NCBI GenBank assembly: GCA_030654175.1
Contig: JAURXZ010000032.1
Location: forward strand, 1 to 41,262
Direction of reading: 5' to 3'
Source of the DNA: Bacteroidia bacterium
GTDB taxonomy: Bacteria > Bacteroidota > Bacteroidia > 2-12-FULL-35-15
DNA: 41,262 nucleotides
Below the pieces are notes generated by a model, which saw nothing but the letters and a program-made list of their open reading frames with translations, did not search any database and was not told the origin of the DNA. Below are positions 20,952 to 35,663 of the stretch, one piece after another; position 1 is the stretch's first letter; each line of letters starts with the position of its first letter. The position numbers and the translations under genes were made by a program.

Positions 20952-21022
20952 ACCTTTTAAGATAAGAGCTAACCTCCATTTAACATGCATCTTGAGTAAT
21001 AATGTAATTAATTAAAAATGAT

Positions 21023-21030
21023 TATCTTTG
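21023..21030 (+). promoter_or_regulatory. -7 box before the SGNH-type gene
   Basis: TATCTTTG fits TAnnTTTG. It lies inside the longest possible reading frame (from 21018), and a transcript from it would start near 21037, which favours ATG 21072 as the true start. Confidence 0.45.
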
Positions 21031-21071
21031 AAATGATCAATAAAAATAAAAAAAATCCTAAACATATAATC

Positions 21072-22286
21072 ATGAGAGCAACTCTACTTATTTCAGTTTT
21101 ATTTATTTCCCTGATCACTAATGCTCAAACAAAAGTTTTGTTTTTGGGAAATAGTTTTACGTATACTTTTGATGTACCGGCTTTGTTTAGTGGTCTTGCA
21201 AGTTCTGCCGGGATATCTGTTACCATTGATCAGAATACACAAGCCGGTATGGCAGTGGCGGATGAACAGATAATAGGGCATGTAAATGATGCAGTATCTC
21301 AGTCGAAAATCAATTCTCAGCAGTGGGATTATGTGGTTGTGCAGGATAACATGGGGAACTATGTAAATAATATTGGTATTATTTCTTCCACTTGCGGGAA
21401 TGCAAATGTTGCACTTTACAACATGATAAAAGCAAATAACCCCTGCACACGTATAATTTACTTTGCCGGATGGGGCCCCTCTGGTGGTGTTTCCAGCGGA
21501 GATAATACTACTGCCTGCATTGATAGAATCCATGGAAACATGATCTACCTGAATAATGGGATAGGGCAGGAAATTGTTACACCCATTGGAAAGGCATGGA
21601 ACAGTTCATTAACACAATTGCCATCTGTTAATCTTTATTATTCCGACAATGTACATCCGTCTTTAGAGGGTAGTTACCTGGCTGCAGCTACAATTTTTAC
21701 AACTATTTTTAAGATCGATCCTACTAATTTAACATATAACGGTACGGTAAATTCTACTACCGCGCAAACCATGAGAACAATTGCTTTCAATACTGTTACC
21801 GGCACATCCTATTTTACAACAACTAATTTAAGTGCTTACACTCCTATCATTTCTCAAAGCGGAGCTGTTCTGAGTGTTCCTGCAAGCTCTACCACTTACC
21901 AATGGTACCAGAATGGAAATGCAATCGGATCAAATTCCAATTCCTTTACAGTAACTGCTAATGGGGATTATTATGTGGAAGTAACTAACTCCGGTGGATG
22001 TTCAATGTCTTCTTTTAACGTAAACATTTTTTCTACGGGAATTGAAAATGCCGATATTCTTTCTGATGGTTTTAACATCCTTTCTATGACATCTAACTTG
22101 TTTGAACTTAGTTCAGCATCAATGGGCACCATCTCCATATTTGATATGCAGGGGAAACGTGTAAGCACCTTAGAAAAAAGAAATGAAAAAATTGATCTGG
22201 ATCTTTCCAATTCAACTGCAGGTATTTATCTGATTGTTTTGTCAAGTGGAAATAGTAAATTTTCAAAAAAAATAAGTGTTTTTTAG
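21072..22286 (+). CDS. T9SS-exported DUF4886/SGNH-like hydrolase
   Basis: I choose ATG 21072 (404 residues) because the protein then begins with a normal signal peptide (MRATLLISVLFISLITNAQ), and the earlier ATG at 21018 is overlapped by a -7 box. The domain after the signal shows VLFLGNSFTY (Ser nucleophile block), DYVVVQDNMGNYV, and DNVHPSLEGSYLAA (Asp-His pair), the pattern of DUF4886/SGNH-type esterases. Residues about 255-320 look like an immunoglobulin-type beta domain (YQWYQNGNAIGSNSNSFTV). The last 75 residues (ISIFDMQGKRVSTL ... STAGIYLIVL) are a T9SS type A sorting domain. Substrate, perhaps acylated glycans, is unknown. Confidence 0.8.
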   Translation: MRATLLISVLFISLITNAQTKVLFLGNSFTYTFDVPALFSGLASSAGISVTIDQNTQAGMAVADEQIIGHVNDAVSQSKINSQQWDYVVVQDNMGNYVNNIGIISSTCGNANVALYNMIKANNPCTRIIYFAGWGPSGGVSSGDNTTACIDRIHGNMIYLNNGIGQEIVTPIGKAWNSSLTQLPSVNLYYSDNVHPSLEGSYLAAATIFTTIFKIDPTNLTYNGTVNSTTAQTMRTIAFNTVTGTSYFTTTNLSAYTPIISQSGAVLSVPASSTTYQWYQNGNAIGSNSNSFTVTANGDYYVEVTNSGGCSMSSFNVNIFSTGIENADILSDGFNILSMTSNLFELSSASMGTISIFDMQGKRVSTLEKRNEKIDLDLSNSTAGIYLIVLSSGNSKFSKKISVF

Positions 22287-22358
22287 ATCCGTATTAAGAA
22301 CTTGATTGAAATTTAATTACATGTTTTGTTATTTAAAATTTTGCACACCAGCTCTGTC

Positions 22359-22461
22359 ATCCCGAACTTTTGTGATCCCGGAGTACTGCGGGATTGTTAT
22401 TATGAAAGATATTGCTAAAACCTCTAACAAGAAGCCTTTTGGCGGAAAAGCCAATCGGGAT
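22359..22461. repeat. ATCCCG/CGGGAT inverted repeats
   Basis: Convergent intergenic gap of 221 bases. ATCCCG (22375-22380) and CGGGAT (22389-22394) form a short hairpin, and ATCCCGA (22359-22365) pairs over a longer distance with TCGGGAT (22455-22461). A 64-codon frame covers this stretch, but it is only repeat-derived and I do not call it a gene. The structure may end both converging transcripts. Confidence 0.5.
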
Positions 22462-22507
22462 GGTATAACCTTAAATAAGATTTTTATGAATAAAATTTAA
22501 TCGTCCT

Positions 22508-23104
22508 CTAATAAAATCTCAAAATCTGTTTTATTTTTTTTGTTATTTTTTTCCATTTACTACTGTTTTTTCCATTTTTATCTTTTGTGAAAATTAACAG
22601 AACACTATTTTTTTTCTTTATTTTAACCTGTGGGATTTCTATTTTTAAAACTTCTTTCCGATATTTTTTATTCTTTAATTTAATGCCGACAACGCCTTTT
22701 TTTTGGTAACGCATTACTTCTTTTAAAAAAATCTTTTTCGACCACGGTAATTGATATTTTTTATTTTTATAGATATATACTTTGCCGCTTTCACAATCCT
22801 CCAACACTAAGCCATTGTTGCAAATATCTTTCTTATCTTCTTTTAATGAATCATATATTTTTTCAAAATTCTTTTCATTGATCCGATGTCCTGCACAGGA
22901 AGGAGTGGTTTTAATTCCTTTTTTATGCAGGTATTTCACCAGCTCTTTTAAAGGACCATCAACGCTTTGTGAAAAATCATTATTGGTGATTGTATTTTTA
23001 TTTTTTTGTTCTTTAAAATAATACCAATTCGGCCTTTTTATTGGCAACAGCCAACTTCCTTTATGGAAGGTATTATGAGGAATAAAATCGGCAGTGATTT
23101 TCAT
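22508..23104 (-). CDS. Unknown Lys-rich protein with a PSCAGH motif
   Basis: Not recognised. I prefer the ATG at 23104 (198 residues); an in-frame ATG at 23173 would add 23 residues without a conserved look. The clearest feature is LVKYLHKKGIKTTPSCAGH (about residues 55-73), where Cys and His could bind a metal or form an active site. GKVYIYKNKKYQLPW follows. The C-terminal third is very Lys-rich (KKITKKIKQIL) and suits nucleic-acid binding, although this may only reflect AT-rich DNA. No signal peptide or membrane helix. It points toward the SGNH-type gene and stands alone. Confidence 0.65.
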   Translation of the reverse strand: MKITADFIPHNTFHKGSWLLPIKRPNWYYFKEQKNKNTITNNDFSQSVDGPLKELVKYLHKKGIKTTPSCAGHRINEKNFEKIYDSLKEDKKDICNNGLVLEDCESGKVYIYKNKKYQLPWSKKIFLKEVMRYQKKGVVGIKLKNKKYRKEVLKIEIPQVKIKKKNSVLLIFTKDKNGKNSSKWKKITKKIKQILRFY

Positions 23105-23196
23105 AGGAACAGCTTTAAAAATGATTAATGTAAAATCTGTGCCAGCAAGGGTAAACGTATCTGAATTTAGCAAAGCTCAATATTTCCAAAAGTCAT

Positions 23197-23290
23197 AGTT
23201 CCGTAGGAACGAATGATATGGTAACAATGGACTTTAGTCCATTGAAAAAGAGTAATAACTTAAAACAAGTTCCGTAGGAACGAATGATAT
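23197..23290. repeat. Composite repeat: two GTTCCGTAGGAACG boxes and a hairpin
   Basis: The 23-base unit at 23197-23219 recurs exactly at 23268-23290 (AGTTCCGTAGGAACGA, then ATGATAT). Its core GTTCCGTAGGAAC is itself nearly palindromic. Between them CAATGGAC (23225-23232) and GTCCATTG (23237-23244) form a perfect hairpin around TTTA. It lies between two divergent genes, just before the promoter of the CsgG operon. Confidence 0.8.
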
Positions 23291-23338
23291 TGAAATCTTA
23301 AAAGAAAAAAAATCAAAAAAAATACACTTAATAATTTG

Positions 23339-23346
23339 TACTTTTG
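23339..23346 (+). promoter_or_regulatory. -7 box of the CsgG-SpoIIE operon
   Basis: TACTTTTG fits TAnnTTTG exactly and lies 18 bases before ATG 23365. This argues against the in-frame TTG at 23344 as start. No good -33 box is seen. Confidence 0.5.
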
Positions 23347-23364
23347 GTCTTCACACAACGGATA

Positions 23365-24678
23365 ATGACTGAAAACGATAAAGACCCGCTTATTGAAAGT
23401 TTGGAAGAAAAGGTGACTCATCTGAGTCGGATGCTTGTAAAATCTTTTGGCTATGCCGATCAGGATCCTGACACCTTTCTGCAAAATGCCCGAAGAACAA
23501 CAGAAGCTATCTGTCGCTTTATTTATATCAAAGAAATAGGGGAGCCTAAAGGCAAAATGATGTTGAATGATTATGGCCGTGAACTTTTAAATAAAAAAAT
23601 TATCCCTGATCGGATGGGGATCCTTATAGGAACTATCCAAACCTATGGTAACTATGCTGCTCATGCTCAGGATGATCTTTCGGCTGCCACCCGTGAATGG
23701 ATTGCTCCTTGTCAAACAGCATTGGCGAGCCTTACCAATTGGTTCTTTCTTGAATACCTGAAAGGTAACATACCTAATGAACTGGTAAGTCCTGTACATA
23801 GCTATTCTGATGCAGCACCTGAAAAAGGTAAACAGGCAACGAAAGCTCCTGCAAAAAAAGTTTCTGCTTTTTTTATTTTCGTGATCGTAATTGTTTTGGT
23901 CCTTATTGGCTCATCTGCTACCTATTTTATTTTTAAATCAACGGATGGAAATGAAGTGTTGTCGCCTGAAATTACAACAGTTGCAAATGAAACTGTGGTA
24001 AAGCAACAAGATGACCTGGTAAATAAATTGAATGAAGCTACCCCAAATCCGGATGCTAAAAGGATCGCTGTTCTTTACTTTGATAATGGTTCAGAAAATA
24101 ATGAGCTATCACGTTTAAGAAAAGGTTTAGCAGATATGCTCATCTCTGATCTTACAAAAATAAAAATGTTAAACGTTGTAGAACGGTCAAGACTGGAGGA
24201 AATATTAAAAGAACAAAAATTAAATAATTCCAAAGAATTTGATGCTTCCACTGCAACCAAAGTAGGGAAATTGTTAGGCGTGGAATATATTTTAACAGGT
24301 TCTTTCTTTGACCTCATGGGCAGTTTACGGATTGATGCACGCATCATCGATGTGGAAACAGGTAAGATAATTAAGAGCGAAGGTGTGGATGGCGGTACAG
24401 CAACCTTTTTTGATCTTGAAAAAAAATTGGTTGTTAAAATCGCAAATGGATTGAATGTGGAAATGTCTGTTTCGGATTTAGGTACTACTTCAGAAACCGC
24501 TGCAAAAACAAAAGCTGCCCTTTCCTACGAAACCTCATTGTTATATTCAGATGGGTTAGACCAAATGGATAAAGGTGAAACCGGTAAAGCCATCGAAATT
24601 TTCAAAAAGGTACTTGAAAAAAATCCTGATTTTGTGCCTGCGCAAAAGGCCCTTGATAAGCTTAGTGTAAAAATATAA
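23365..24678 (+). CDS. DUF4145-like / membrane / CsgG-like / TPR protein
   Basis: Protein of 437 residues from ATG 23365. Domains in order: a helical domain resembling DUF4145 (about 10-132; RRTTEAICRFIYIKE and QTYGNYAAHAQ), one transmembrane helix (about 166-190), a CsgG/TolB-like domain (231-363; RIAVLYFDNGSENNEL, ILTGSFFDLMGSLRIDARIIDV), and a TPR-type pair of helices (386-434). The orientation is probably DUF4145 inside, CsgG-like part in the periplasm. The CsgG part is closely similar to that of the next gene, so the two are paralogous. First gene of a three-gene operon; the next ATG begins 2 bases after its stop. Function unknown; envelope sensing is inference. Confidence 0.8.
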   Translation: MTENDKDPLIESLEEKVTHLSRMLVKSFGYADQDPDTFLQNARRTTEAICRFIYIKEIGEPKGKMMLNDYGRELLNKKIIPDRMGILIGTIQTYGNYAAHAQDDLSAATREWIAPCQTALASLTNWFFLEYLKGNIPNELVSPVHSYSDAAPEKGKQATKAPAKKVSAFFIFVIVIVLVLIGSSATYFIFKSTDGNEVLSPEITTVANETVVKQQDDLVNKLNEATPNPDAKRIAVLYFDNGSENNELSRLRKGLADMLISDLTKIKMLNVVERSRLEEILKEQKLNNSKEFDASTATKVGKLLGVEYILTGSFFDLMGSLRIDARIIDVETGKIIKSEGVDGGTATFFDLEKKLVVKIANGLNVEMSVSDLGTTSETAAKTKAALSYETSLLYSDGLDQMDKGETGKAIEIFKKVLEKNPDFVPAQKALDKLSVKI

Positions 24679-24679
24679 A

Positions 24680-26764
24680 ATGAAAAAATGGGTAGCGTAT
24701 ATATTGTTCTTTGCTTTTTCCTTAACAGGTAAAGCCAAAACAATTGCAATTTCCTATTTCGACAATTCGAGCGGGGATGCTAAATACAATGCCTTATCTA
24801 AAGGTATTGCCGATATGCTTATTACCGACCTTTCAAAAGTAAAGGGTGTAAACATTGTTGAGCGTGAAAAATTAGAAAAGCTGATTCAGGAAATTAAACT
24901 CGGTCAATCAAAATATTTTGATCCAGCCACTGCTCAAAAATTAGGAAAAGGTCTTGGTGCACAAAACATTCTTACGGGTTCATTTTACTTTTTGGATAAT
25001 ACCTTGCGCATCGATGCCCGATTGATTGATGTTCAGACAGGTGGTATTATATTGGCAGAACAGGTAACCGGCAACAAAAATAGTTTCTTCGCTCTTCATC
25101 AGCAGTTGGCAACCCTGCTTTCTAAAAATCTGAACGTTCCTTATAATCCTGATCTGAGCGGACTTTACAGATCAAATGAAGAAGTTGAATTAACTGCAGT
25201 TGTTAATTACTCCAACGCCATTGAATTGCAGGATCAGGGAATGGCAGCGGATGCAGAAGTTCTTCTTGAGAAAACAATTACTACATATCCTAAATTTAAT
25301 TTCGCCAAAAATAAATTGGATGAGTTAAAGGAATGGCTAAAAAAAATAGAGGCGCAACGTGAACTGTTAATAGCAGAGGAACTGAAAAGTGCTATAAACA
25401 CTATTGATCCGGCAAGTGATAAATTTGGAACACAAATTCAAACTATTTGGACAACCCTGGTAGGCTCATATAAATTCAATCAGTTGTTATCTTTCAACAA
25501 TTCATTAAGGAAAATGAATTTCGATCCCAAAAAGAAAATGTATGGAGAAGCATCAGCTCTTACTCTTGGCGAGATGATGTTATTTTACGATTGTATTGCG
25601 TTAAATTCCTTAAAAAAACACGAAGAAATAATAGAATCCTCAAAAGCATTTATTACCGAGTATCCTTTAAGTGGATATTTTCAAAGTATCAAAATGTTTT
25701 TAGAGCAGGCTATAAAAGAAATAGAACAGCGCGAAAATGGTAAAAAGGGATTAGAAAATAAACTGGAAGCCGAAGCGCTTGATGCTTACCTGAATTATTT
25801 GAATAAATTAAGATGGAGATCAAATCTTCAGTTCGTTAATGAAAAAGAGTATAAGCATTATCAGCAGCTCTATAGATCGCAGGTACTAAGCGTTTCTAAA
25901 GCAACTTTGGATGCCTGGGATGAAAGCACTAAGTTTTCTGAGTTCACAGAGTTTTTTGATATTGCACTTCACTTCAATGATATTAAAACCATGGAAGAAA
26001 TAGTAGTGGTTTGCAAAAAAATATTCACCGATCCTGATGATGAAGAACGGGCATTGAGCTTAGAAAATAAACTGGATGATTACAAAACCAAAACAGAAGA
26101 ACAGAAAGAGAAAATAGCGGAACTGGAAAACATTGCTAAGAAAGGAACTAAAGCCGAACTCGAAAAAGTTATTAAATGGCTTTTTAGTAATGAAAAATAT
26201 AACCGGCCTGATCTGCTTCTTTCTATTTGCAACCAATACATTACAAACTACAAAGCCGGTTATGAAAATGAAACAGCATTGTTATTAGAAGCCTGGGAAG
26301 GGCTTATCGTTAATACTGCGAAACTGAAAAGTATTGAAGAAGCAAAAAAAAATCAGGAAATACTTAAAGGAAAAGCAGCTGATTTTAAAGACTACATAAC
26401 AGTTTATGAAAAGGCTTTAAAGGAAATAAATACCGACTTAAAAGGTCTGCAAAATGATTACAATACATACTTAAAGAATCTTAAAGATACAGATCCTATG
26501 GTTGGTGTTTTAGAAAATTACGCTGCAATTTATAAGGATAATTATCAATATACTGAAGAAGCATATACGAGGAAACAATTAATTGATCTGTTTAAATTGG
26601 ATGACGACAAAGGACCATTGCAATTATTTTTGCTATCCATGAGTTATTTTAATCTTGGCTATTTTGATAATGTAAAAAAAACAGCCGCCCAATTAAAGGA
26701 AAAATATCCTTCAAGTACTTATAACGAATCAATAAGTTCAATTGCTAATTTCATGCCCCGATAA
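24680..26764 (+). CDS. Exported CsgG-like protein with TPR/coiled-coil region
   Basis: Protein of 694 residues with a signal peptide (WVAYILFFAFSLTGKAK). Residues about 20-155 are a CsgG-like domain (TIAISYFDNSSGDAKYNAL, NILTGSFYFLDNTLRIDARLIDVQ with only one gap-free run to the paralogue upstream). Next come TPR-like helices (about 165-215). Long helical and coiled-coil repeats follow (215-690; LENKLDDYKTKTEEQKEK), ending in a TPR-like block (LFLLSMSYFNLGYFDNVKKTA). It is likely periplasmic. CsgG proper forms an outer-membrane curli pore, but the beta-barrel strands and lipobox of CsgG are not evident, so a scaffold or sensor role is more likely. It is translationally coupled to its neighbours. 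Confidence 0.8.
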   Translation: MKKWVAYILFFAFSLTGKAKTIAISYFDNSSGDAKYNALSKGIADMLITDLSKVKGVNIVEREKLEKLIQEIKLGQSKYFDPATAQKLGKGLGAQNILTGSFYFLDNTLRIDARLIDVQTGGIILAEQVTGNKNSFFALHQQLATLLSKNLNVPYNPDLSGLYRSNEEVELTAVVNYSNAIELQDQGMAADAEVLLEKTITTYPKFNFAKNKLDELKEWLKKIEAQRELLIAEELKSAINTIDPASDKFGTQIQTIWTTLVGSYKFNQLLSFNNSLRKMNFDPKKKMYGEASALTLGEMMLFYDCIALNSLKKHEEIIESSKAFITEYPLSGYFQSIKMFLEQAIKEIEQRENGKKGLENKLEAEALDAYLNYLNKLRWRSNLQFVNEKEYKHYQQLYRSQVLSVSKATLDAWDESTKFSEFTEFFDIALHFNDIKTMEEIVVVCKKIFTDPDDEERALSLENKLDDYKTKTEEQKEKIAELENIAKKGTKAELEKVIKWLFSNEKYNRPDLLLSICNQYITNYKAGYENETALLLEAWEGLIVNTAKLKSIEEAKKNQEILKGKAADFKDYITVYEKALKEINTDLKGLQNDYNTYLKNLKDTDPMVGVLENYAAIYKDNYQYTEEAYTRKQLIDLFKLDDDKGPLQLFLLSMSYFNLGYFDNVKKTAAQLKEKYPSSTYNESISSIANFMPR

Positions 26765-26773
26765 CCTTTACTG

Positions 26774-28741
26774 ATGCAGGCTTTACCTAAAGATACGATG
26801 ATTAATGATATGAATAATGAAGCCTGGGGCCAGCGTTATGTTGATAGGGATAAAGCAATGGAACTCGCAGTTAAAGCTAAAGAAAAGGCTGTTGAAGATC
26901 ACGATCAGTTGAATATAACCTATGCCAGACTTACCATTGCTCAACTTGCCTTTTGGAAAATAGCGGAAGGGGACCACCTCAGGGAAGCGATAGAATCCTT
27001 ACATCAATTTGAAAAAATAAATGATCCGCTGGGAATTTCAAGAGCGCATTGTATCTGTGCAGGAATGTATGATCAATATGGACAGTATGAAAAAGCAATG
27101 CATCATGCGCAACATGCTGTGAAAATGAGCCGGCAAGTTGTGGATAAAGAAAATAAAGCCGATTGCTATACTGTTTTAGGCCAGATCTATTCAAGAACAC
27201 ACGATTATTCCCAGGCTATAAAAGCATTCCGGATAGGCCTCGAAACACGCAAACAACTGAAAGATCTTAAAGCGGTTGCTTCTTCTCTAAACCTTATAGG
27301 AAGAAACCTCGTGTTAAGCAAAAACTATAATGAAGCAGAAGAATATTATAAAGAAAGCCTCTCACTGAGAGAAAATATAAATGATATTCAGGGTATTCCA
27401 TGGACCTATCTTGGCCTTGCAAGCCTTTTTAGTGAAAAAGGCGAATTAGAAATATCCATTGATTATTACAATAAAGCTGAAAGATCAAACCAGTTTAAAG
27501 AAAAACGATTTGAATTATTATGCCTGATTGGCAGAGGTAGAATTTACCTGGAGCAATTAAATATAGGGTCCGCTATTACCAATCTAAATAAGGCTTTGGT
27601 TATTTCTGAAGAACTGAAAATTATTGCCTTAACATCTGAAGTGCATCAATTACTTTCTTCAGCGTATGAAAAAAATAATGATTTTTCAAGATCACTTCAT
27701 CACTACAAATGTTTCAATGATCTTCAGCAGGAAATATTGAGCAGCGAAAAAGTGAACATGCTTAAACATCAGCAAATTGCTTTCTCTGTGGAGCATGCCG
27801 AAAAAGAAGCAGAGATCCATCGCCTTAAAAATATTGAACTTAAGAATGCATTCGATAAAATTGCCATACAGCATCATGAGCTGGAAATAAAAAACAAAGA
27901 AATAACCGACAGCATTGATTATGCTAAATACATACAGGATGCTTATTTTCCTTCCAAAGAATTATTTAAAAAAATAGTACCTGATTCTTTTCTTTTGTAT
28001 AAACCAAAAGATATTGTGAGTGGTGATTTTTATTGGTTTCACCTCACCCCTGGTCCCTCTCCAAATGTGGAGGGGAATAAAAGGGGTGAGGTACTGTTTG
28101 CTGCTGCTGATTGCACAGGGCACGGTGTTCCCGGTGCTATCATGAGTGTTATTTGTTGCAATGCCTTGAATGATGTAATGAAAAAAGGAAGCATTCATCA
28201 ACCTGATCTTATCCTCAACAATGTTCGTGAAATTGTAACCGGAGCTTTTGAGCAACGCGAAAATTACTCAACACAAAAAGATGGAATGGATATAGCGCTG
28301 ATAGGCCTTTCGCCATTCCCAAATGTTTCTGGAGCTGTGAAACTTCAATATGCCGGTGCATACAATCCACTTTGGGTGATAAGAAAAGGAAAGCCTGCAA
28401 CGGACTCCGGCACTATTTTAAGCACATCAAGCCACTATCTCATAGAAATTAAAGCAGATCGTCAGCCAATAGGCCTTTATGAAAGAATGGATCCATTTAC
28501 ACTTCATGAAATGGACGTTTTTAAAGGGGATACAGTATATTCATTTTCGGATGGATATGCTGATCAGTTTGGTGGTGAATTCGGAGAGAAATTTAAATAC
28601 AAACCTTTAAAGGAATTACTACTTTCAATTCAGGATAAAACAATGGCCGAACAGCACGATATACTTGTTAAAACATTTGATGACTGGAAACAAAATGAGG
28701 AACAGATCGATGATGTATGTATGATCGGTGTAAGGATATAA
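26774..28741 (+). CDS. TPR-containing SpoIIE-type PP2C phosphatase
   Basis: Cytoplasmic protein of 655 residues without signal peptide. TPR-type repeats fill about residues 20-330 (ADCYTVLGQIYSRTHDYSQA, LNLIGRNLVLSKNYNEAEEY). A coiled coil (335-375) leads to a SpoIIE/PP2C phosphatase domain (about 380-655), a family that dephosphorylates anti-anti-sigma or other phospho-Ser/Thr proteins. Metal-site motifs SGDFYW (Asp418), AADCTGHGVPGA, GMDIALIG, YSFSDGYADQFGG and DDVCMIGVRI are all kept. Between SGDFYWF and VLFAAADC lies an 18-residue insert (HLTPGPSPNVEGNKRGEV) encoded by a palindromic DNA repeat. Nine bases separate it from the gene before. TPRs may receive a signal from the envelope partners; that is inference. 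Confidence 0.88.
   Translation: MQALPKDTMINDMNNEAWGQRYVDRDKAMELAVKAKEKAVEDHDQLNITYARLTIAQLAFWKIAEGDHLREAIESLHQFEKINDPLGISRAHCICAGMYDQYGQYEKAMHHAQHAVKMSRQVVDKENKADCYTVLGQIYSRTHDYSQAIKAFRIGLETRKQLKDLKAVASSLNLIGRNLVLSKNYNEAEEYYKESLSLRENINDIQGIPWTYLGLASLFSEKGELEISIDYYNKAERSNQFKEKRFELLCLIGRGRIYLEQLNIGSAITNLNKALVISEELKIIALTSEVHQLLSSAYEKNNDFSRSLHHYKCFNDLQQEILSSEKVNMLKHQQIAFSVEHAEKEAEIHRLKNIELKNAFDKIAIQHHELEIKNKEITDSIDYAKYIQDAYFPSKELFKKIVPDSFLLYKPKDIVSGDFYWFHLTPGPSPNVEGNKRGEVLFAAADCTGHGVPGAIMSVICCNALNDVMKKGSIHQPDLILNNVREIVTGAFEQRENYSTQKDGMDIALIGLSPFPNVSGAVKLQYAGAYNPLWVIRKGKPATDSGTILSTSSHYLIEIKADRQPIGLYERMDPFTLHEMDVFKGDTVYSFSDGYADQFGGEFGEKFKYKPLKELLLSIQDKTMAEQHDILVKTFDDWKQNEEQIDDVCMIGVRI
28041..28092. 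repeat. Palindromic repeat inserted in frame in the phosphatase domain
   Basis: ACCTCACCCCT (28041-28051) and AGGGGTGAGGT (28082-28092) are exact inverted arms; inside, CCCTCTCCA (28055-28063) pairs with TGGAGGGG (28068-28075) apart from one mismatch. Translated it gives the LTPGPSPxxxG pattern, which I know as a repeated palindromic element found inside and between Bacteroidota genes. It is in frame and introduces no stop. Confidence 0.85.
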
Positions 28742-28768
28742 GTAATTTTCTGTTTTGATCAGGAACTC

Positions 28769-28800
28769 ACCCTGACAGGGGTTCAAACCCTGTTAGGGGT
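28769..28800. repeat. Self-complementary ACCCTGACAGGG repeat pair
   Basis: ACCCTGACAGGG (28769-28780) pairs with CCCTGTTAGGGGT (28788-28800), with one mismatch and an extra G; each arm is also palindromic by itself. It follows the phosphatase stop by 28 bases and could end the operon's transcript, although no T tract follows. Confidence 0.7.
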
Positions 28801-28842
28801 AAAGTTTAGCTCAGCAATTATCAGAATTTAACCTCTTAATTT

Positions 28843-30000
28843 ATGAAAAAAAAACCTCTGTCTGGCGTAAAAGTTTTAGACCTTACACGTCTGCTACCCG
28901 GCCCAATGTGTACCCTCCACCTCGCTGATATGGGAGCTGATGTGATAAAAATAGAGGAGCTTTCCATTGGTGACTATGCACGATTGATGCCACCAATGCA
29001 AAATAAAAATTCGGTTTTTTTTCATGCTGTAAATCGTAACAAACGTTCTATAGCCATTGATCTTACCAGAGAAGAAGGACGCTTACTTTTTTTAAAATTA
29101 TCTGAAACAGCGGATATTATAGTAGAAAGTTTTCGCCCCGGTGTAGTGAATAAGTTGGGAATAGATTACGAAACACTCAAAAAAAATAATCCGAAATTAA
29201 TTTATTGTTCCATTACCGGTTATGGTCAAACGGGCCCATATCGCGATAAGGCAGGGCATGATATTAATTATTGCGCATACACGGGTGTGCTTGATCGTAA
29301 AGAAGAACAACCTTTCATTCCCAATTTTCAAATAGCAGATGTTGTAGGAGGTTCTTTAAATGCAGCAATGGGAATACTTGCAGCCTTAGTACAACAAAAA
29401 ATGACAGGGGAGGGGCAGTACATTGACGTTTCTATAATGGATGGCATATTAGCCCATGCAACACCGGCACTTGCCCAGGTAGATCACGGTGAGCATGGTT
29501 TTTTAACAGGCGCTTTACCATGCTATTCTATTTATGAAACATCCGACAAAAAATTTATGGCACTTGGTGCTTTGGAATTTAAATTTTGGGAACGCTTCTG
29601 CAAAGCCATCAATAGAGCCGATCTTGTTATTTTTCACATGGTGGCTGAAGAGCAGGCACAAAAAGTATTTGCTGAAGTATCCGCAATTTTTGAAAGCAAT
29701 ACCCAACAATTTTGGACAGATAAATTCAAAGATATTGATTGCTGCGTATCTCCGATTCTCACGCTGAAAGAAAGCCTGGATAACGAACAGGTGAAGGCAC
29801 GCAATATGGTTCAGATAAAAAACTATCCGGATGAAGGAGAGGTATTACAATTCGGACTGCCCCTTAAATTCAGCAGTTTTGAATTTAAAGTTGAAATGCC
29901 GGCTCCTCTTTTAGGAGAGCATACTCAGCAGGAACTATTGGCAATAGGCTATTCAGAAATAGAAATTAAACAATTAAGGGAAACTAAAATTATTTTATAA
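28843..30000 (+). CDS. Family III CoA-transferase, alpha-methylacyl-CoA racemase-like
   Basis: Protein of 385 residues of the CaiB/BaiF family. LSGVKVLDLTRLLPGPMCTL and ADMGADVIKIE are the N-terminal landmarks. ITGYGQTGPYRDKAGHDINY and IADVVGGSLNAAMGILAAL contain the His and Asp that act as the acid/base pair in alpha-methylacyl-CoA racemase, and the GHDINY spelling is closer to that enzyme than to formyl-CoA transferase. It would interconvert 2R and 2S methyl-branched acyl-CoA so they can enter beta-oxidation. An acyl-CoA dehydrogenase follows after 128 bases, which supports that role. A true CoA-transferase activity is the alternative. Confidence 0.85.
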   Translation: MKKKPLSGVKVLDLTRLLPGPMCTLHLADMGADVIKIEELSIGDYARLMPPMQNKNSVFFHAVNRNKRSIAIDLTREEGRLLFLKLSETADIIVESFRPGVVNKLGIDYETLKKNNPKLIYCSITGYGQTGPYRDKAGHDINYCAYTGVLDRKEEQPFIPNFQIADVVGGSLNAAMGILAALVQQKMTGEGQYIDVSIMDGILAHATPALAQVDHGEHGFLTGALPCYSIYETSDKKFMALGALEFKFWERFCKAINRADLVIFHMVAEEQAQKVFAEVSAIFESNTQQFWTDKFKDIDCCVSPILTLKESLDNEQVKARNMVQIKNYPDEGEVLQFGLPLKFSSFEFKVEMPAPLLGEHTQQELLAIGYSEIEIKQLRETKIIL

Positions 30001-30094
30001 ATTTGGCCTGCTGATTTTTTTTTACGATTGAAAAAATTATTACGCTGCAATCCCTACGCGCAAGAAAAAATTGCAGCTGACAATTTAGTTTAAC

Positions 30095-30128
30095 TAACAT
30101 CTAAAATCTTATATCTAACATCTAAAAT
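30095..30128 (+). repeat. Direct repeat TAACATCTAAAAT abutting a start codon
   Basis: TAACATCTAAAAT occurs at 30095-30107 and 30116-30128; the second copy touches the ATG of the acyl-CoA dehydrogenase. It resembles the AT-rich repeated leader before the multifunctional fad gene at 1867. It may keep the ribosome landing site unstructured. Confidence 0.6.
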
Positions 30129-31268
30129 ATGATACCACGCACACTATTTACCGAAGAGCATGAAATGCTCAGAATTGCAGTAAGAGATTTCTTTCAAAAA
30201 GAGATCGTTCCTTTCCATGATAAATGGGAGCAGGAAGGTCAGATTTCCAGAGAAGCATGGCTGAAGGCCGGAGAAATGGGTATCCTTTGTCCTTGTGCCC
30301 CTGTTGAATATGGTGGTCCCGGAACAGATTTTTTATACAGCGCAATAATAATTGAAGAACTTTCGAAAACAGGCTGCACCGGCCCCGGTTTCTTTTTACA
30401 TTCTGATATTGTAGCACCATATATTTTACATTACGGAACCGAAGAGCAAAAAAAGAAATGGATACCTAAAATGGTTAGTGGTGAGGTCATTACAGCTATT
30501 GCTATGAGTGAACCATCTGCTGGAAGTGATTTGCAGGGAATAAAAACCACTGCCGTGAAACAAGGTGATCATTATATCGTAAATGGTTCCAAAACATTTA
30601 TTACCAATGGTTACATGTCCGATATGGTGATAGTGGTTGTAAAAACCGATCCTGCTGCAGGAGCCAAAGGAACAAGCCTTTTGATCATGGATAACACCAT
30701 GGAGGGATATTCCAAAGGAACCCCTTTGAAAAAAGTAGGAATGAAGGCTCAGGATACCTGTGAAATGTTTTTTGATAACGTTAAAGTGCCCGTATCATGC
30801 CTGCTTGGTAAAGAAGGAGAGGGGTTTAACTATCTTATGCAGGAGCTTCCGCAGGAAAGACTTTTGGTGGGTATTATGGGAATTACAACTGCTGAAACAG
30901 CTATTGAAAAAACGATACAATATACAAAAGAACGTATTGCTTTTGGTAAACCGGTTGCTTCTTTCCAGAATACACGTTTTAAGTTAGCTGAAATGGCCAC
31001 TGAAACGCAGATTGGAAGAGTATTTGTTGATAAATGTATTGAGCTTCACCTGAATAAGAAATTAGATATTCCAACTGCAGCCATGCTGAAATTCTCTATG
31101 ACCGACCTGCAATGTAAAGTGGTGGATGAATGTTTACAGCTCCACGGTGGTTATGGCTATATTTGGGAATATTGGATCGCACGTGCTTATGCCGACAGCA
31201 GAGTACAGAAAATTTATGCAGGTACCAATGAGATAATGAAAGAGATCGTTTCCAGAGCTATCATGTAG
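30129..31268 (+). CDS. Acyl-CoA dehydrogenase
   Basis: FAD enzyme of 379 residues, the normal length. Domains: helical N-terminus (LRIAVRDFFQKEIVPF), beta middle domain with AIAMSEPSAGSDLQGIKTTA and FITNGYMSDMVIVV binding FAD and substrate, and helical C-terminus. The last domain has QLHGGYGYIWEYWIARAY and the end YAGTNEIMKEIVSRA, whose Glu is in the catalytic-base position of many family members. It would introduce the first double bond of beta-oxidation into (possibly branched) acyl-CoA and pass electrons to ETF. Its neighbour is a racemase-like CoA enzyme. An inverted repeat after the stop probably ends the transcript. Confidence 0.93.
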   Translation: MIPRTLFTEEHEMLRIAVRDFFQKEIVPFHDKWEQEGQISREAWLKAGEMGILCPCAPVEYGGPGTDFLYSAIIIEELSKTGCTGPGFFLHSDIVAPYILHYGTEEQKKKWIPKMVSGEVITAIAMSEPSAGSDLQGIKTTAVKQGDHYIVNGSKTFITNGYMSDMVIVVVKTDPAAGAKGTSLLIMDNTMEGYSKGTPLKKVGMKAQDTCEMFFDNVKVPVSCLLGKEGEGFNYLMQELPQERLLVGIMGITTAETAIEKTIQYTKERIAFGKPVASFQNTRFKLAEMATETQIGRVFVDKCIELHLNKKLDIPTAAMLKFSMTDLQCKVVDECLQLHGGYGYIWEYWIARAYADSRVQKIYAGTNEIMKEIVSRAIM

Positions 31269-31291
31269 TTTCTGATTACAATTTACAATTC

Positions 31292-31342
31292 AATATTTAA
31301 ACCCATCTTTCAAACTTGTTTTGATTGATGGGTTTAAATATT
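31292..31342 (+). terminator. Terminator-like inverted repeat after the acyl-CoA dehydrogenase
   Basis: AATATTTAAACCCATC (31292-31307) and its exact complement (31327-31342) form a 16-bp stem with a 19-base loop, 24 bases after the stop codon. No strong T tract follows, so termination is likely but not certain. Confidence 0.6.
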
Positions 31343-31602
31343 ATGCTCAAAAATATAATAAAAAGATACAATTTCGCCTCCACACTATCCTATTTATAAG
31401 TATAAGTTCAGGATTGGAAACAAAAGAAAAACAATAATCGTATCAAAATCCATTTCAATTTCAGAAAATTAGGGAAGATATTTTTTTGTAATTTACAGAT
31501 TTTTAGGTATTTATATTTTAGTTGCCTTTTTTAGAATAAAAAAATCGAAAAATTATTGCATTATTTTTTTCATCTGAAAATTAATTATTATCTTTCGACA
31601 CC
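31343..31602. other. AT-rich gap with a weak promoter before the T9SS operon
   Basis: No gene or repeat is visible in most of this stretch. TATCTTTC at 31589-31596, one base off TAnnTTTG, lies only 7 bases before ATG 31603. If it is used, translation must begin further downstream than that ATG. Confidence 0.4.
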
Positions 31603-32976
31603 ATGAAATTGTATTTTAACATACAAAATATAGACTTTAACTGTTATTTTTTCGCCTTTAGAAATTCTCTTAAATTAAATTTTATAGAGAAATCTTCAGG
31701 TAGATTAAGTTCATTTTCAAAAAATAAGAATTTGGATACAAGTGTTTTACTTCGCAATTCATTACCTTTTTATTCAATAGTTGTTTCTTTTTTGCTGTTA
31801 CCATTTTTATCTTTCTCCCAAATCAATTTTGTTAACAACGGAGCACCAATCGCTAATACCAGTAATATTTTTGTTATCAATGGCAATGTAATACATCAGA
31901 ACAATGGTACGATTGCTAATTCGGGTAATTTTTTTATTCGTGGCAACTGGACCAATAATAATTCTTCCGACAATATATTTACTGTTGGACCAAACGGCTG
32001 GGTTCATTTAGATAGCAGTGTTCAAACCATAGGCGGAAGTTTGCTCACACATTTCAATAATCTTGAATTGGCCGGTACCGGAACCAAACAACTTGTTGGC
32101 GTTGATGTAGAAATTGAAGACACACTTGCACTTAACGATCATGAATTTGATGCCGGTGATAACACAGTACATGTATTAGCTACCGATTCGAGTAATATTA
32201 CTCGTACTCTTGGATTTGTCAGCAGCACAAATGATGGAGGGCTTGCCCGAAATACACTTTCCACCAGCACCTATTTTTTCCCTGTTGGCTCTAGCTTGGG
32301 AACAGCCCGTTTCCGACCGGTTGAGATCAAACCAAATGAACCAACAGCCAATACTTATAAGGTAAGGTTTGCGAATAATGATCCTTCTATTGACGGTTTT
32401 GATCCTGCCTCCAAAGAACCTATTGTAGGCGAAATAAACCCTGACTTCTACCATAAAATAAACAGGACTGCAGGTATCGATAAAGCAGACATTACTGTAT
32501 ATTATAATGATACAGCTGATGGAACTGCAATTTACGACATTCTAGCTTATTGGGAAGTTATCTCCACGGAATGGAAAAACCCTGGATTAGGTGTGGTCTC
32601 TAATAATTACGGATTAAAAGGTATCACAAAAACTTCATTTGAAAACGTCACTACTGATCCCGGTCTTATCCCTTTCGCTTTAGCGGTGAATGTAGAATTA
32701 GCAACCAATGTATATGTTGCCAACGTGTTTTCTCCTAACGGGGATGGAAATAATGACGTGCTACACCCATTGGGAAAAGGAATTACGGAGATAAAGTTTA
32801 CTATTTATAACCGTTGGGGCGAAAAAGTATTTGAAACCAATGATATTAATGGAGGATGGGATGGAACCTATAAGGGAGAGCCTTTGAATATAGGAGTATT
32901 CGTTTATTATGTTTGGGGGAAATTGAAGAACGGAGAAGAATTAACAAAAAAAGGAAACGTCACGCTGTTGAGATAA
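31603..32976 (+). CDS. T9SS type B sorting-domain surface protein
   Basis: Protein of up to 457 residues. Its hydrophobic signal sequence (PFYSIVVSFLLLPFLSFSQ) begins only near residue 55, and there is no second Met before it. The true start may be the TTG near 31732, which would give a normal signal peptide and fit the -7 box at 31589-31596. The middle is beta-rich and Asn/Thr-rich (TIANSGNFFIRGNWTNNNSS). The last 90 residues (NVFSPNGDGNNDVLHPLG, FTIYNRWGEKVFETND, GVFVYYVWGKL) are the gliding-motility-associated C-terminal (CHU_C/type B) domain that directs export through the T9SS. Type B cargo usually needs a PorP/SprF partner, encoded next. Confidence 0.85.
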   Translation: MKLYFNIQNIDFNCYFFAFRNSLKLNFIEKSSGRLSSFSKNKNLDTSVLLRNSLPFYSIVVSFLLLPFLSFSQINFVNNGAPIANTSNIFVINGNVIHQNNGTIANSGNFFIRGNWTNNNSSDNIFTVGPNGWVHLDSSVQTIGGSLLTHFNNLELAGTGTKQLVGVDVEIEDTLALNDHEFDAGDNTVHVLATDSSNITRTLGFVSSTNDGGLARNTLSTSTYFFPVGSSLGTARFRPVEIKPNEPTANTYKVRFANNDPSIDGFDPASKEPIVGEINPDFYHKINRTAGIDKADITVYYNDTADGTAIYDILAYWEVISTEWKNPGLGVVSNNYGLKGITKTSFENVTTDPGLIPFALAVNVELATNVYVANVFSPNGDGNNDVLHPLGKGITEIKFTIYNRWGEKVFETNDINGGWDGTYKGEPLNIGVFVYYVWGKLKNGEELTKKGNVTLLR

Positions 32977-33006
32977 GTTTTAATGGAATATTTAATAAGT
33001 AATATA

Positions 33007-34095
33007 ATGAAACTCATTACTTTGAGACCAAAAGTCATATTTTTTAGCGTAATTGTAAATGTTATATTTTACATATTACCTACTACATGTGCTTTTTCTC
33101 AGGATATTCACTTTTCCCAATACCACATGACTCCGCTGATGCTTAACCCTGCTTTAACAGGGATTTTCGAAGGCAATCAAAGAGTGTATTTAAATTACAA
33201 AAATCAATGGCAGGGGATGGGGCAGTCTGGAGCTACATATAACACTGCTTTGTGTTCATTCGATACTCGATTGTCTAAGAAAAAATGGGAAAAGGGATTT
33301 CTTGGTGCCGGGATCACTGCTTTTAAAGATGTTGCAGGTGATTTAAAATTAGGAACAACCCAACTGAATCTTTCTCTTGCAGGTTCTGTTTTTATTAACA
33401 AGCAACAATATATCACAGGTGCAATGCAGGGTGGGATTGTTCAGAAAAGTATTTCTACCAGTGCAATGCAATGGGAAAATCAATATGATCAAAGTACCGG
33501 AGCCTATAATGCTGGATTAGCTTCAAACGATATTGCCAGCCTTCCTCCAACCTTATATGGCGATTTTTCAAGTGGGCTTTCATGGAGTTATAATAAACCT
33601 GCGTCCACTATTTCCGCCAACGACCAGTTGAAAATAATTTTAGGCTTCGCTGCCCTCAATATAAATACTCCTAAACAAAGCTTTTATTCTACCGGCACTT
33701 CTGATAAACTTTATACAAGCCTGGTTATGCATGCTCAATCCAGGATAGGAATTTCAAACTCCGATTTAACCGTGGTACCAAATGTTGTTTTTATTAAGCA
33801 AGGACCATCTATTGAGTTGAATGTTGGATCACTATTTCGTTGGGCCATAAAAAACAATTCCAGATATACCGGTTATGGCAAAGGAATGGCTTTGTCACTT
33901 GGTGCTCAATACAGAATGAAAGACGCTGTAATTCCAATGATGCTTTTTGAATATTCAAACTATGCTTTTGGTGTAAGTTATGATGTAAATACTTCATCAT
34001 TAACTCAAGGGACAAAAGGAAGAGGAGGAGTTGAAATTTCTTTACGACTAATTACACAAGATTTCAGGAACTCTCCAACAAGACTATTAGACTAA
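33007..34095 (+). CDS. PorP/SprF-family outer-membrane protein
   Basis: I prefer ATG 33007 (362 residues), which leaves a normal signal peptide (VIVNVIFYILPTTCAFSQ); an in-frame ATG at 32983 adds eight residues. DIHFSQYHMTPLMLNPALTG is the family's hallmark opening, followed by YLNYKNQWQGMG and many amphipathic beta strands of an outer-membrane barrel. PorP/SprF proteins work with the T9SS; SprF is needed for surface display of SprB and other type B cargo. The gene sits directly after a type B protein, and the next gene starts 3 bases after its stop, giving a four-gene operon. Confidence 0.9.
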   Translation: MKLITLRPKVIFFSVIVNVIFYILPTTCAFSQDIHFSQYHMTPLMLNPALTGIFEGNQRVYLNYKNQWQGMGQSGATYNTALCSFDTRLSKKKWEKGFLGAGITAFKDVAGDLKLGTTQLNLSLAGSVFINKQQYITGAMQGGIVQKSISTSAMQWENQYDQSTGAYNAGLASNDIASLPPTLYGDFSSGLSWSYNKPASTISANDQLKIILGFAALNINTPKQSFYSTGTSDKLYTSLVMHAQSRIGISNSDLTVVPNVVFIKQGPSIELNVGSLFRWAIKNNSRYTGYGKGMALSLGAQYRMKDAVIPMMLFEYSNYAFGVSYDVNTSSLTQGTKGRGGVEISLRLITQDFRNSPTRLLD

Positions 34096-34097
34096 CA

Positions 34098-35663
34098 ATG
34101 ATGAGAATTTTTTTTTATTTCGTATTACTACTATTATTATCAAACACTTTTCAAGCTAATAGTCAGGAAAATAATATCCTATCCAATAAAACAGAGAGAG
34201 CAGATTTGCAAGAAATTATTATAACCAATTTAGGTGAAAATGTAAATACACCTTATGATGAATATGCACCAATTATTTCTGCAGACGGATCAATGATGAT
34301 TTTTACATCCAGACGTCCAATTACACCGGATGCAATTGCCGGCCAGATAAATGGAATGGAAAACATTTATGTTTCTTATTATAATGATATGATCTGGAAA
34401 TGGAGTGAAGCTAAAATATTGGGACCAACAATAAATCAGACCATGAGAAATAATTCCGCAATAGCACTTTCAAATGATGGTCAGCGACTATTGGTTTACA
34501 GAGGTGACCGGAGTGGAAATATATATGAATCTGAGTTGATAGGTGAAGATTGGACTGAACCCGTTAAAATGCCAAAACCTATTAATTCGAAAAAACATGA
34601 ATCTTCAGCCACCATTTCGCCTGATGGACGAACTATTTATTTTATAAGTAACCGTAGGCATGGCAAGGGTGGATTGGATATCTGGATGTGCCGTATGGAT
34701 AAGACAGGTGTTTGGGGGCAAGCTGAGAATCTGGGAGAGGCCATTAATACCCCTGAAAATGAAGAAGGTGTTTTTATTCATCCTGATGGTAAAACGCTTT
34801 ACTTTAGTTCAAAAGGACATAATACTAAAGGTGGATATGATATTTTTAAATCCGTATTTGAAAACAATAAGTGGGGTGTTCCTTTTAATATGGGAGATTC
34901 TATTAATACTGCCGATGATGATTTGTTTTTTAATGTCACCGCTGACGGAAGAACGGCTTACTACTCTTCTGTTCGTGGAGGAGGATTAGGGAAGAAAGAT
35001 ATTTTTGAATTATATTTTAAAAACAAAAAAAAGGAATCCGGGCTTATTCTATTTAAAGGTGTGGTTCTAGATAAGGAAACATTTCAACCTATTGGTGCAG
35101 ATATTAAGATCACCGATAACGATGAAAATGAAATTATTAACATTGTAAAATCAAATAAGGCTACAGGAAAATTCCTTGTGGCCTTACCTGCAGGTAAAAA
35201 TTATGGTATATCAATAAGCCAGAGAGGTTATTTGTTTTATTCCGAAAACATTAATATTCCTATAACAGCAGACTATAAAGAAATTCGCAAACCAATTCCA
35301 TTAAAAAAACTTGACATCGGAAATAAAATACTTTTGAAAAACATTTTCTATGATTATGGTAAAGCCACCTTGCGTCCTGAATCACGTGCTGAGCTTAATG
35401 AACTTGTGAAATTGATGAACTTAAGTACGAACATAAAAATTGAAATTGCCAGTCATACTGATAGCCAAAGCTCAGAAGAGTTTAATCTGTCGCTTTCTCA
35501 AGCCAGATCCCAATCTGTATTGGAATACCTTTTTGCTGCAGGTATCAGTAGAGATCAAATGGTAGCTAAAGGTTATGGAGAGGCCAATCCTATTGCCACC
35601 AATGATAACGAGGAAGGCAGAAAACAAAATCGTAGAACAGAAATAAATATATTGGAACAGTAA
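34098..35663 (+). CDS. PD40 repeat / OmpA-family protein (PorE-like)
   Basis: Protein of 521 residues with signal peptide (FFYFVLLLLLSNTFQANSQ). Residues about 50-305 hold five PD40/WD40-like beta-propeller blades (YAPIISADGSMMIFTSRR, SSATISPDGRTIYFISNR, GVFIHPDGKTLYFSSKG and others). About 313-395 is a carboxypeptidase-regulatory-like beta sandwich (FKGVVLDKETFQPIGADIKI). The C-terminal 110 residues are an OmpA/Pal peptidoglycan-binding domain (NIFYDYGKATLRPES, ASHTDSQSSEEFNLSLSQAR, GYGEANPIATN). This order is that of PorE-type T9SS accessory proteins, except that the N-terminal TPR is not evident. It would tie the exported adhesin or the secretion machine to the cell wall. Confidence 0.88.
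   Translation: MMRIFFYFVLLLLLSNTFQANSQENNILSNKTERADLQEIIITNLGENVNTPYDEYAPIISADGSMMIFTSRRPITPDAIAGQINGMENIYVSYYNDMIWKWSEAKILGPTINQTMRNNSAIALSNDGQRLLVYRGDRSGNIYESELIGEDWTEPVKMPKPINSKKHESSATISPDGRTIYFISNRRHGKGGLDIWMCRMDKTGVWGQAENLGEAINTPENEEGVFIHPDGKTLYFSSKGHNTKGGYDIFKSVFENNKWGVPFNMGDSINTADDDLFFNVTADGRTAYYSSVRGGGLGKKDIFELYFKNKKKESGLILFKGVVLDKETFQPIGADIKITDNDENEIINIVKSNKATGKFLVALPAGKNYGISISQRGYLFYSENINIPITADYKEIRKPIPLKKLDIGNKILLKNIFYDYGKATLRPESRAELNELVKLMNLSTNIKIEIASHTDSQSSEEFNLSLSQARSQSVLEYLFAAGISRDQMVAKGYGEANPIATNDNEEGRKQNRRTEINILEQ

Follow-up and report, generated by a model that had tools for sequence, protein, structure and literature searches.

An operon joining two CsgG/TolB-N-like proteins to a SpoIIE phosphatase in Bacteroidia: a possible envelope-to-cytosol signalling unit

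What feeds a bacterial serine/threonine phosphatase when no partner kinase is in sight? How bacteria monitor their envelope and control such enzymes is poorly known, and the question bears on three adjacent genes of a Bacteroidia bacterium (GenBank assembly GCA_030654175.1). The genes, called A, B and C here, lie on contig JAURXZ010000032.1; the window analysed is this whole contig of 41,262 nucleotides, from a genome of 5.1 Mb. That genome has 52 matches to the SpoIIE family PF07228 across 48 open reading frames (ORFs), and a search of it with the Hanks kinase family PF00069 returned no match, which raises the question of the input to these dozens of phosphatases. In our reading, which we hold at a probability of about 0.5, A, B and C would form one envelope-to-cytosol signalling unit, in which a receptor pair controls phosphatase C via a HEPN adaptor. 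The operon would then offer one such input in a small and testable form, made up of a receptor in the membrane, a partner that is exported and a single phosphatase.

Gene order and domains of the A-B-C unit

Gene A (23365..24678, 437 amino acids; identified by ORF, Pfam, folds and alignment) encodes a HEPN/DUF4145 domain, a membrane helix, a CsgG/TolB-N-like domain and TPRs, in this order. Gene B (24680..26764, 694 amino acids; ORF, Pfam and model) encodes a Sec-type signal peptide, a second CsgG/TolB-N-like domain and a long α-solenoid, while gene C (26774..28741, 655 amino acids; ORF, Pfam and alignment) encodes TPRs followed by a SpoIIE/PP2C phosphatase. All three are on the plus strand, separated by 1 base (A-B) and 9 bases (B-C), exactly as stated in the initial annotation, which was made from the letters alone. 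That annotation had also described C as a TPR-PP2C enzyme and the first two products as carriers of closely similar CsgG/TolB-like domains reading ILTGSF and then LRIDAR. Both descriptions hold: the motifs are exact in A and B, and the CsgG domains score 62.2 bits (A) and 57.9 bits (B) against a Pfam cut-off of 20.8, with matches that span only about positions 9-101 of 210.

The order of the three genes is conserved. Named contigs were scanned with two exact peptide patterns of B, so the resulting distribution is a lower bound. The scan returned 23 loci, 16 of which (L039-L054) were counted as true B relatives; their record titles name Bacteroidetes, Flavobacteriales or Bacteroidia metagenome-assembled genomes (MAGs) or uncultured isolates. 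A HEPN-type A followed by B was found at 12 distinct loci (the window and 11 named contigs), and C follows B at all 10 that continue far enough (window, L039, L040, L041, L042, L044, L046, L047, L049 and L054); at L045 and L053 the contig stops inside B. Two further contigs, L043 and L051, begin within B and run on into C. C is kept after A-B down to identities of 57% (A), 39% (B) and 44% (C). Spacing at the other HEPN-type loci ranges from -1 to 98 bases (A-B) and from -4 to 18 bases (B-C); the widest A-B gap, 98 bases at L039, is enlarged by a different repeat-like insert with a short inverted repeat, as judged by eye. Locus L054 has a tandem pair of C genes, and at L046 B is split over two ORFs. 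Besides A, B and C, every gene family occurs in at most 3 of the 17 loci compared, flanks being shared mainly by L042 with L046, by L049 with L053, and between the caspase loci described below. The initial annotation had left it to a survey of Bacteroidota genomes whether the three families share a neighbourhood and an order; at all testable HEPN-type loci they do, rather than being scattered.

The unit is present in 6 of the 36 genomes of the order, which here consists of one genus, and a full A in 3 of the 395 genomes of the class sample, all from the window's genus. In the phylum sample, the HEPN subfamily was found at E 1e-6 in 1 of 395 genomes, namely the window's own. The phylum searches with the HEPN and A profiles scored at most 10 and at most 4 candidates per genome, respectively; therefore, absence elsewhere is not firm. 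With no further context for the HEPN subfamily in that sample, neighbours elsewhere give no clue to its placement. To judge by the record titles and by the divergence of L049, L051, L053 and L054, the unit appears to be rare yet wider than one genus.

The HEPN domain occupies residues 13-140 of A (23401..23784, plus strand, as are all features given here), according to alignment and fold match. Residues 10-135 of the model align with the HEPN fold of 2hsb (Z 14.6, root-mean-square deviation (rmsd) 2.3 over 121 residues), and Csm6, the sacsin HEPN domain and HEPN toxins match at Z 10-12.5. The assignment is also independently backed by the Pfam match to DUF4145, whose score narrowly exceeds the cut-off of 23.1 with full-length A (23.6) and narrowly misses it with the isolated domain (21.7). 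According to the available part of PMC3710099, DUF4145 belongs to the HEPN superfamily, and the HEPN RNase motif is Rx4-6H. In A, H100 is invariant in 12 of 12 aligned rows, and the Ex3[KR] pair (E47-x3-R/K51) is kept; the arginine of Rx4-6H was not found, there being no R at residues 84-99 in any of the 12 rows. The domain is the most conserved part of the whole unit, with a mean pairwise identity of 0.88 (elsewhere in A: CsgG 0.81, TPR 0.66, helix region 0.27). Between the window and L039, the rate of nonsynonymous substitution (dN) is 0.000 and that of synonymous substitution (dS) 0.47 over its 128 codons; the corresponding dN is 0.010 in the CsgG domain of A, 0.007 in that of B, and 0.198 in the helix and linkers of A. 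Such a frozen domain favours a fixed binding partner or ligand and disfavours a fast-evolving toxin. The cytosolic HEPN domain of A, lacking the RNase arginine, would thus serve as an adaptor or ligand-binding switch. If so, a HEPN domain can act as a transmembrane signal adaptor instead of an RNase.

One strong hydrophobic helix is found in 12 of 12 A orthologues (residues 166-184, 23860..23916), preceded by a K-rich stretch and an excess of positive charge. These two features predict that the HEPN domain is inside and the CsgG-TPR part periplasmic, which agrees with the original description of a membrane helix linking the CsgG-like part to a cytosolic DUF4145-like domain. The periplasmic CsgG/TolB-N-like domain (residues 230-362, 24052..24450) is identified by Pfam and fold match, and the C-terminal TPR-like helices (residues 388-430, 24526..24654) by the model and a TPR_1 match of 16.2 bits, below cut-off. 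Residues 232-424 resemble TolB-N (Z 12.4, rmsd 2.8 over 122), and this part also matches LpoB, PelC, CsgG and the CadC sensor 3ly7 (Z 9.3 over 175). These matches came from fold comparison; a PDB sequence search with A gave nothing useful.

In B, the CsgG domain starts straight after the signal peptide, and no conserved lipobox cysteine was seen by eye in the 14 rows, out of 15, that include the N-terminus. The model is good, with a mean predicted local distance difference test (pLDDT) score of 84.7, and the remainder past the CsgG region is a TPR-like α-solenoid. The initial annotation had B exported with long TPR/coiled-coil repeats; the predicted signal peptide agrees with the former, and the latter is refined to a solenoid. 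Residues 17-163 match TolB-N (Z 12.0, rmsd 2.6 over 130), residues 18-228 the periplasmic part of CadC, 3ly9 (Z 10.6 over 187), and B folds like LpoB, PelC and CsgG too. Mean pairwise identity is 0.78 in the CsgG domain and 0.46 and 0.40 in the solenoid, from an alignment (A5) without L046, where B lies in two ORFs, and L050, which has many N.

C combines its TPRs with a SpoIIE domain (PF07228, E 2.3e-14), and its closest solved relative is the serine phosphatase 6k4e (E 6.3e-23). The PP2C metal-binding motifs GDFYW, D[CS]TGHG, DGMD, [ST]DG and DDV are intact in all 11 C rows, representing 10 loci, of an alignment (A3) without L039 and L040, where C is cut at the contig end; mean pairwise identity is 0.46 for the TPRs and 0.53 for the phosphatase. 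In the remaining alignments, A starts were trimmed by up to 8 residues in some rows of A2, and L046 was omitted from A6. Given the strong purifying selection on their domains, together with the intact PP2C motifs, A, B and C all look like working genes.

A 50-base palindrome, CCTCACCCC...GGGGTGAGG, lies in frame within C (28042-28091) and encodes LTPGPSPNVEGNKRG in a variable loop. Its DNA fold is -17.7, versus -6.9 in shuffles (z -6.4). None of the remaining 10 rows of the C alignment has it (L047 carries an insert of another kind at that spot), and it looks like a REP-like (repetitive extragenic palindrome) element tolerated in the coding frame.

As for possible outputs, the genome encodes one small RsbW-like protein, other PF13581 matches lying in frames of 248 to 1331 amino acids, as well as two clear STAS proteins; a 143-residue ORF contains a further, partial STAS match. 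No STAS or RsbW-like partner gene was found within the A-B-C operon; these genes are located elsewhere in the genome. Partner switching is therefore possible as an output, and nothing ties C to it specifically. A TPR + SpoIIE query (P0003) gave 55-138 matches per genome in 9 genomes of the genus, TPR-only matches included.

CsgG-TPR proteins elsewhere in the phylum

At E 1e-10, the A profile matches 46 of the 395 genomes of the phylum sample, and outside the window's own genome the match is confined to the CsgG-TPR part. From each of the other 45 genomes one or two regions were examined, so that the class counts below are lower bounds. In 26 of the 46 genomes, CsgG-TPR stands beside or is fused to a Hanks kinase. 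A Hanks kinase gene followed by two CsgG-TPR genes was found in 14 genomes (L095-L101, L103, L105, L107, L109, L115, L124 and G234), with a large gene between the two CsgG-TPR genes at L100 and two short ORFs between kinase and pair at L097. All 5 kinases of such loci that were tested with Pfam have a membrane helix and a PEGA domain. In 12 further genomes the kinase is fused to CsgG-TPR (L108, L110, L125, L127, L129, L130, L133-L135, L138, L140 and L141), and a SpoIIE gene lies in the region of at least 4 of these 12 loci (L108, L110, L130 and L134), a minimum obtained with our own profile over all regions and with Pfam on chosen proteins. CsgG-TPR is also fused to a cyclase at L111 and L112 and to a TIR domain at L131. 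No kinase, cyclase or TIR links were seen in the regions read from the remaining matching genomes.

A tree of 94 CsgG-TPR domains was built without rows of domain E > 1e-15 or fewer than 150 residues and without G480, G536 and G613. In it, A (12 rows) forms a clade with three Flavobacteriales caspase proteins (support 100/99), and B forms one clade of 17 rows (100/100). The first and second genes of the kinase loci mostly fall in two other clades; thus, two paralogues per locus are a repeated theme. Several other arrangements were seen. At L092, L094 and L104, two CsgG-TPR genes are split by a large protein (1135-1467 amino acids) and a smaller one, with the kinase not adjacent; at L094, the large protein shows matches for Sortilin, ASH and type IX sorting. 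At L093 just a 390-residue gene separates the pair. Tandem TPR proteins of about 750 amino acids with a weak CsgG-TPR profile match (L117, L119-L123, L126 and L128) occur in one other taxonomic family of the phylum; the one tested (L117) has solely TPR in Pfam.

In six genomes of the class (L048, L050, L052, G480, G536 and G613, the first three apparently being the same loci as G057, G542 and G515), A is replaced by a CsgG-TPR-C14 caspase protein with an N-terminal signal-like stretch. The C14 caspase was confirmed with Pfam at L048 and recognised with our own profile at the other caspase loci. B follows the caspase-type A at 4 of the 5 loci with visible downstream sequence (L048, L050, L052 and L176), and C does not adjoin B at any of these four. 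At L175, C was not found in the 874 bases visible there, and L050 has a SpoIIE gene on the opposite strand at a distance of about 5 kb. Caspase-type A and B are on separate contigs in G536; in G613 there is no B after the caspase-type A and no second match in that genome, which is 78% complete. A separate caspase fusion occurs at L056 (Ignavibacteria).

We tentatively suggest that CsgG/TolB-N-TPR proteins, often paired, may be a general periplasmic receptor module of the phylum for Ser/Thr phosphorylation signalling, into which different outputs are plugged. Such outputs would be exported caspases, Hanks kinases, or a PP2C phosphatase to which a frozen HEPN pseudo-enzyme serves as transmembrane adaptor. 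On this view, the operon of the window would represent the phosphatase version, found in a genome where no Hanks kinase was detected, and CsgG-TPR pairs next to kinases are expected to have the same role. The HEPN fold without the RNase arginine and the reuse of the CsgG-TPR module both go beyond the initial annotation.

Signalling unit or another role

We infer the signal, complex and substrate of the proposed unit as follows. Exported B and the periplasmic half of inner-membrane-anchored A would pair via their sister CsgG/TolB-N-like domains, a pairing proposed because several relatives of this fold form rings or complexes. The B α-solenoid and the A TPRs would provide the sensor or client-binding surface. 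A change in the assembly would pass through the single helix of A to its HEPN domain, the putative adaptor or switch, which would dock on or gate the TPR-PP2C phosphatase. C would then dephosphorylate Ser or Thr on a target in the cytosol, which might be a STAS protein of the RsbV type. The proposed route, which leads from the periplasm via A to the phosphatase, is strengthened by the kinase-linked relatives and by the CadC-like periplasmic fold. A signal chain from the envelope through a membrane protein to a phosphatase had been proposed from the outset; its composition, predicted topology and operon structure stand, and the route itself is the best reading of them.

Several observations weigh against this reading. 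The structure model of A is weak overall (mean pLDDT 59.4), and the aligner cautions that helical bundles with Z below about 13 may share mere arrangement: the top HEPN row is at 14.6, most others at 10-12.5. The HEPN domain is far better conserved than the TPRs of C (0.88 vs 0.46), and therefore its main partner may not be C. In the CsgG-TPR tree, A and B are grouped weakly (80/80), and the kinase link is an association in distant relatives, whose CsgG genes, as judged by the tree, lie in clades other than those of A and B. The caspase-type A of G613, with no adjacent B, indicates that A cores need not always pair. The small number of genes for partner switching are encoded away from the operon. 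Finally, because the caspase proteins of the tree make up a single clade, the difference between HEPN with C and caspase without C may reflect a single event.

Among the alternatives, A and B could build a periplasmic scaffold comparable to FlgT or PelC, with C co-transcribed and regulating the same machine without a signal via A. The relatives of known function (LpoB, PelC, CsgG, FlgT and TolB) are mostly assembly or scaffold factors, and the large solenoid of B has as its top Foldseek match a Campylobacter flagellar periplasmic scaffold, at a TM-score of only 0.13. Against a scaffold role stand the highly conserved cytosolic HEPN domain retained in A, the intact phosphatase and the linkage of CsgG-TPR relatives to kinases, cyclases and a TIR domain, and we regard it as unlikely, if deserving of attention. 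We consider less probable still that the locus encodes a stress or defence effector, with HEPN as an RNase triggered by an envelope signal, the variant caspase as an alternative effector, and C resetting the system. Caspase and TIR domains are effector types of conflict systems, and HEPN, caspase and TIR are all found on CsgG-TPR proteins here. HEPN is such an effector type as well, and some HEPN families may use other basic residues instead of arginine (both from the available part of PMC3710099), which, with the retained H100 and Ex3[KR] pair, counts for this possibility, as does a PADLOC match of the HEPN part of A (residues 12-151) to the candidate family PDC-M16A at E 9.6e-5. Yet the Rx4-6H arginine is missing from every row, the domain is nearly frozen, unlike fast-changing toxins, and the Pfam-matched neighbours (among 7 neighbouring proteins, 21018-35660) are metabolic, secreted or type IX secretion proteins. 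That three ordinary genes with unrelated tasks merely happen to be neighbours in a narrow clade is, in our opinion, very improbable: the distribution is indeed patchy within the order, but the gene order is kept in Bacteroidetes, Flavobacteriales and Bacteroidia MAGs while the flanks change, and the genes abut or overlap.

A likely operon promoter element, TAnnTTTG, which we take to be a -7 element, lies at 23339..23346 on the plus strand, 26 bases upstream of the A ATG. Of the 12 HEPN-type loci, all but L040 and L053 were scanned, and the element is present in 7 of these 10: at an identical distance from A in the window, L039, L041, L045 and L047, and within one base of that distance at L042 and L046 if the start is moved to an ATG 24 bases upstream. 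It was not found at L044, L049 and L054. The motif has 24 matches on the plus strand across the 41 kb window. Just 5' of A (23198-23285), GTTCCGTAGGAACGAAT occurs twice, flanking another hairpin, and a short repeat-like or terminator-like hairpin (z -2.5) lies 3' of C (28769-28798). Further downstream, at 31603-35663, comes a run of type IX secretion genes, whose products are a CHU_C-tail protein, PorP/SprF and a PD40-OmpA protein. One weak Pfam hit, of FAD_SOX or relaxase type, was considered a chance match.

Relation to known systems

Assignment to a curli or TolB-type pathway, which the initial annotation had considered as a competing outcome, fails. Pore-forming β-hairpins are a feature of the CsgG channel; in the models, strands 96-132 of B (pLDDT about 76-86) and 308-344 of A (about 61-67) are joined by tight turns only. 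A CsgG domain is present, but neither protein has the trait of an outer-membrane lipoprotein, A having an internal helix and the signal peptide of B lacking a conserved lipobox, and no CsgA, CsgB, CsgE or CsgF was found among the seven neighbouring proteins scanned. The N-domain fold of TolB is present as well, but no PD40 β-propeller match was found in A or B, as would be expected of TolB in Tol-Pal. A clear defence assignment was also rejected: beside the PDC-M16A match of A, PADLOC gives B 0.036 and C 1e-10 to a generic TPR model. C shares with SiaA, RsbU and SpoIIE phosphatases a PP2C domain with intact motifs but differs in its TPR input, no membrane part having been found in it; its identity with SiaA itself was rejected, the NCBIfam SiaA model scoring 136.8 bits against a cut-off of 700.

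The initial annotation knew of no named system with this composition, and a combination of HEPN, a CsgG pair and PP2C was not found in the literature either, among the titles and abstract openings of the matches listed. As far as these searches go, the combination is new. Planctomycetota kinases with periplasmic-side TPR and WD40 are known (PMC11032199, in its available part); thus, there is precedent for sensor repeats on Ser/Thr enzymes. The membrane-bound HEPN (DUF4145) proteins of Anantharaman et al. 2013, in the available part of PMC3710099, resemble A in joining HEPN to a membrane helix. Unlike A, they have a helix type with a conserved WP, and a periplasmic CsgG-TPR part is not described in that portion of the source; A, for its part, has lost the arginine.

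The caspase loci share with A-B-C an orthologous B, at four loci, and a sister A core; they differ in that A is exported, ends in a C14 caspase and has no HEPN, and in that no C stands next to B. CadC-type one-component regulators, like A, comprise a cytosolic domain, one membrane helix and a periplasmic TolB-N-like plus helical sensor. In A, however, HEPN occupies the position of their winged-helix DNA-binding domain, and the operon also encodes another CsgG protein, which is exported, and a phosphatase. The loci with a membrane-helix PEGA kinase and two CsgG-TPR genes, for which to our knowledge there is no name, likewise place two CsgG-TPR paralogues beside a Ser/Thr phosphorylation enzyme, but the enzyme is a kinase and not a phosphatase, and TPRs also precede the CsgG domain (L095). 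The best account of the A-B-C unit would therefore seem to be one that is CadC-like in layout and similar in logic to the kinase-CsgG loci.

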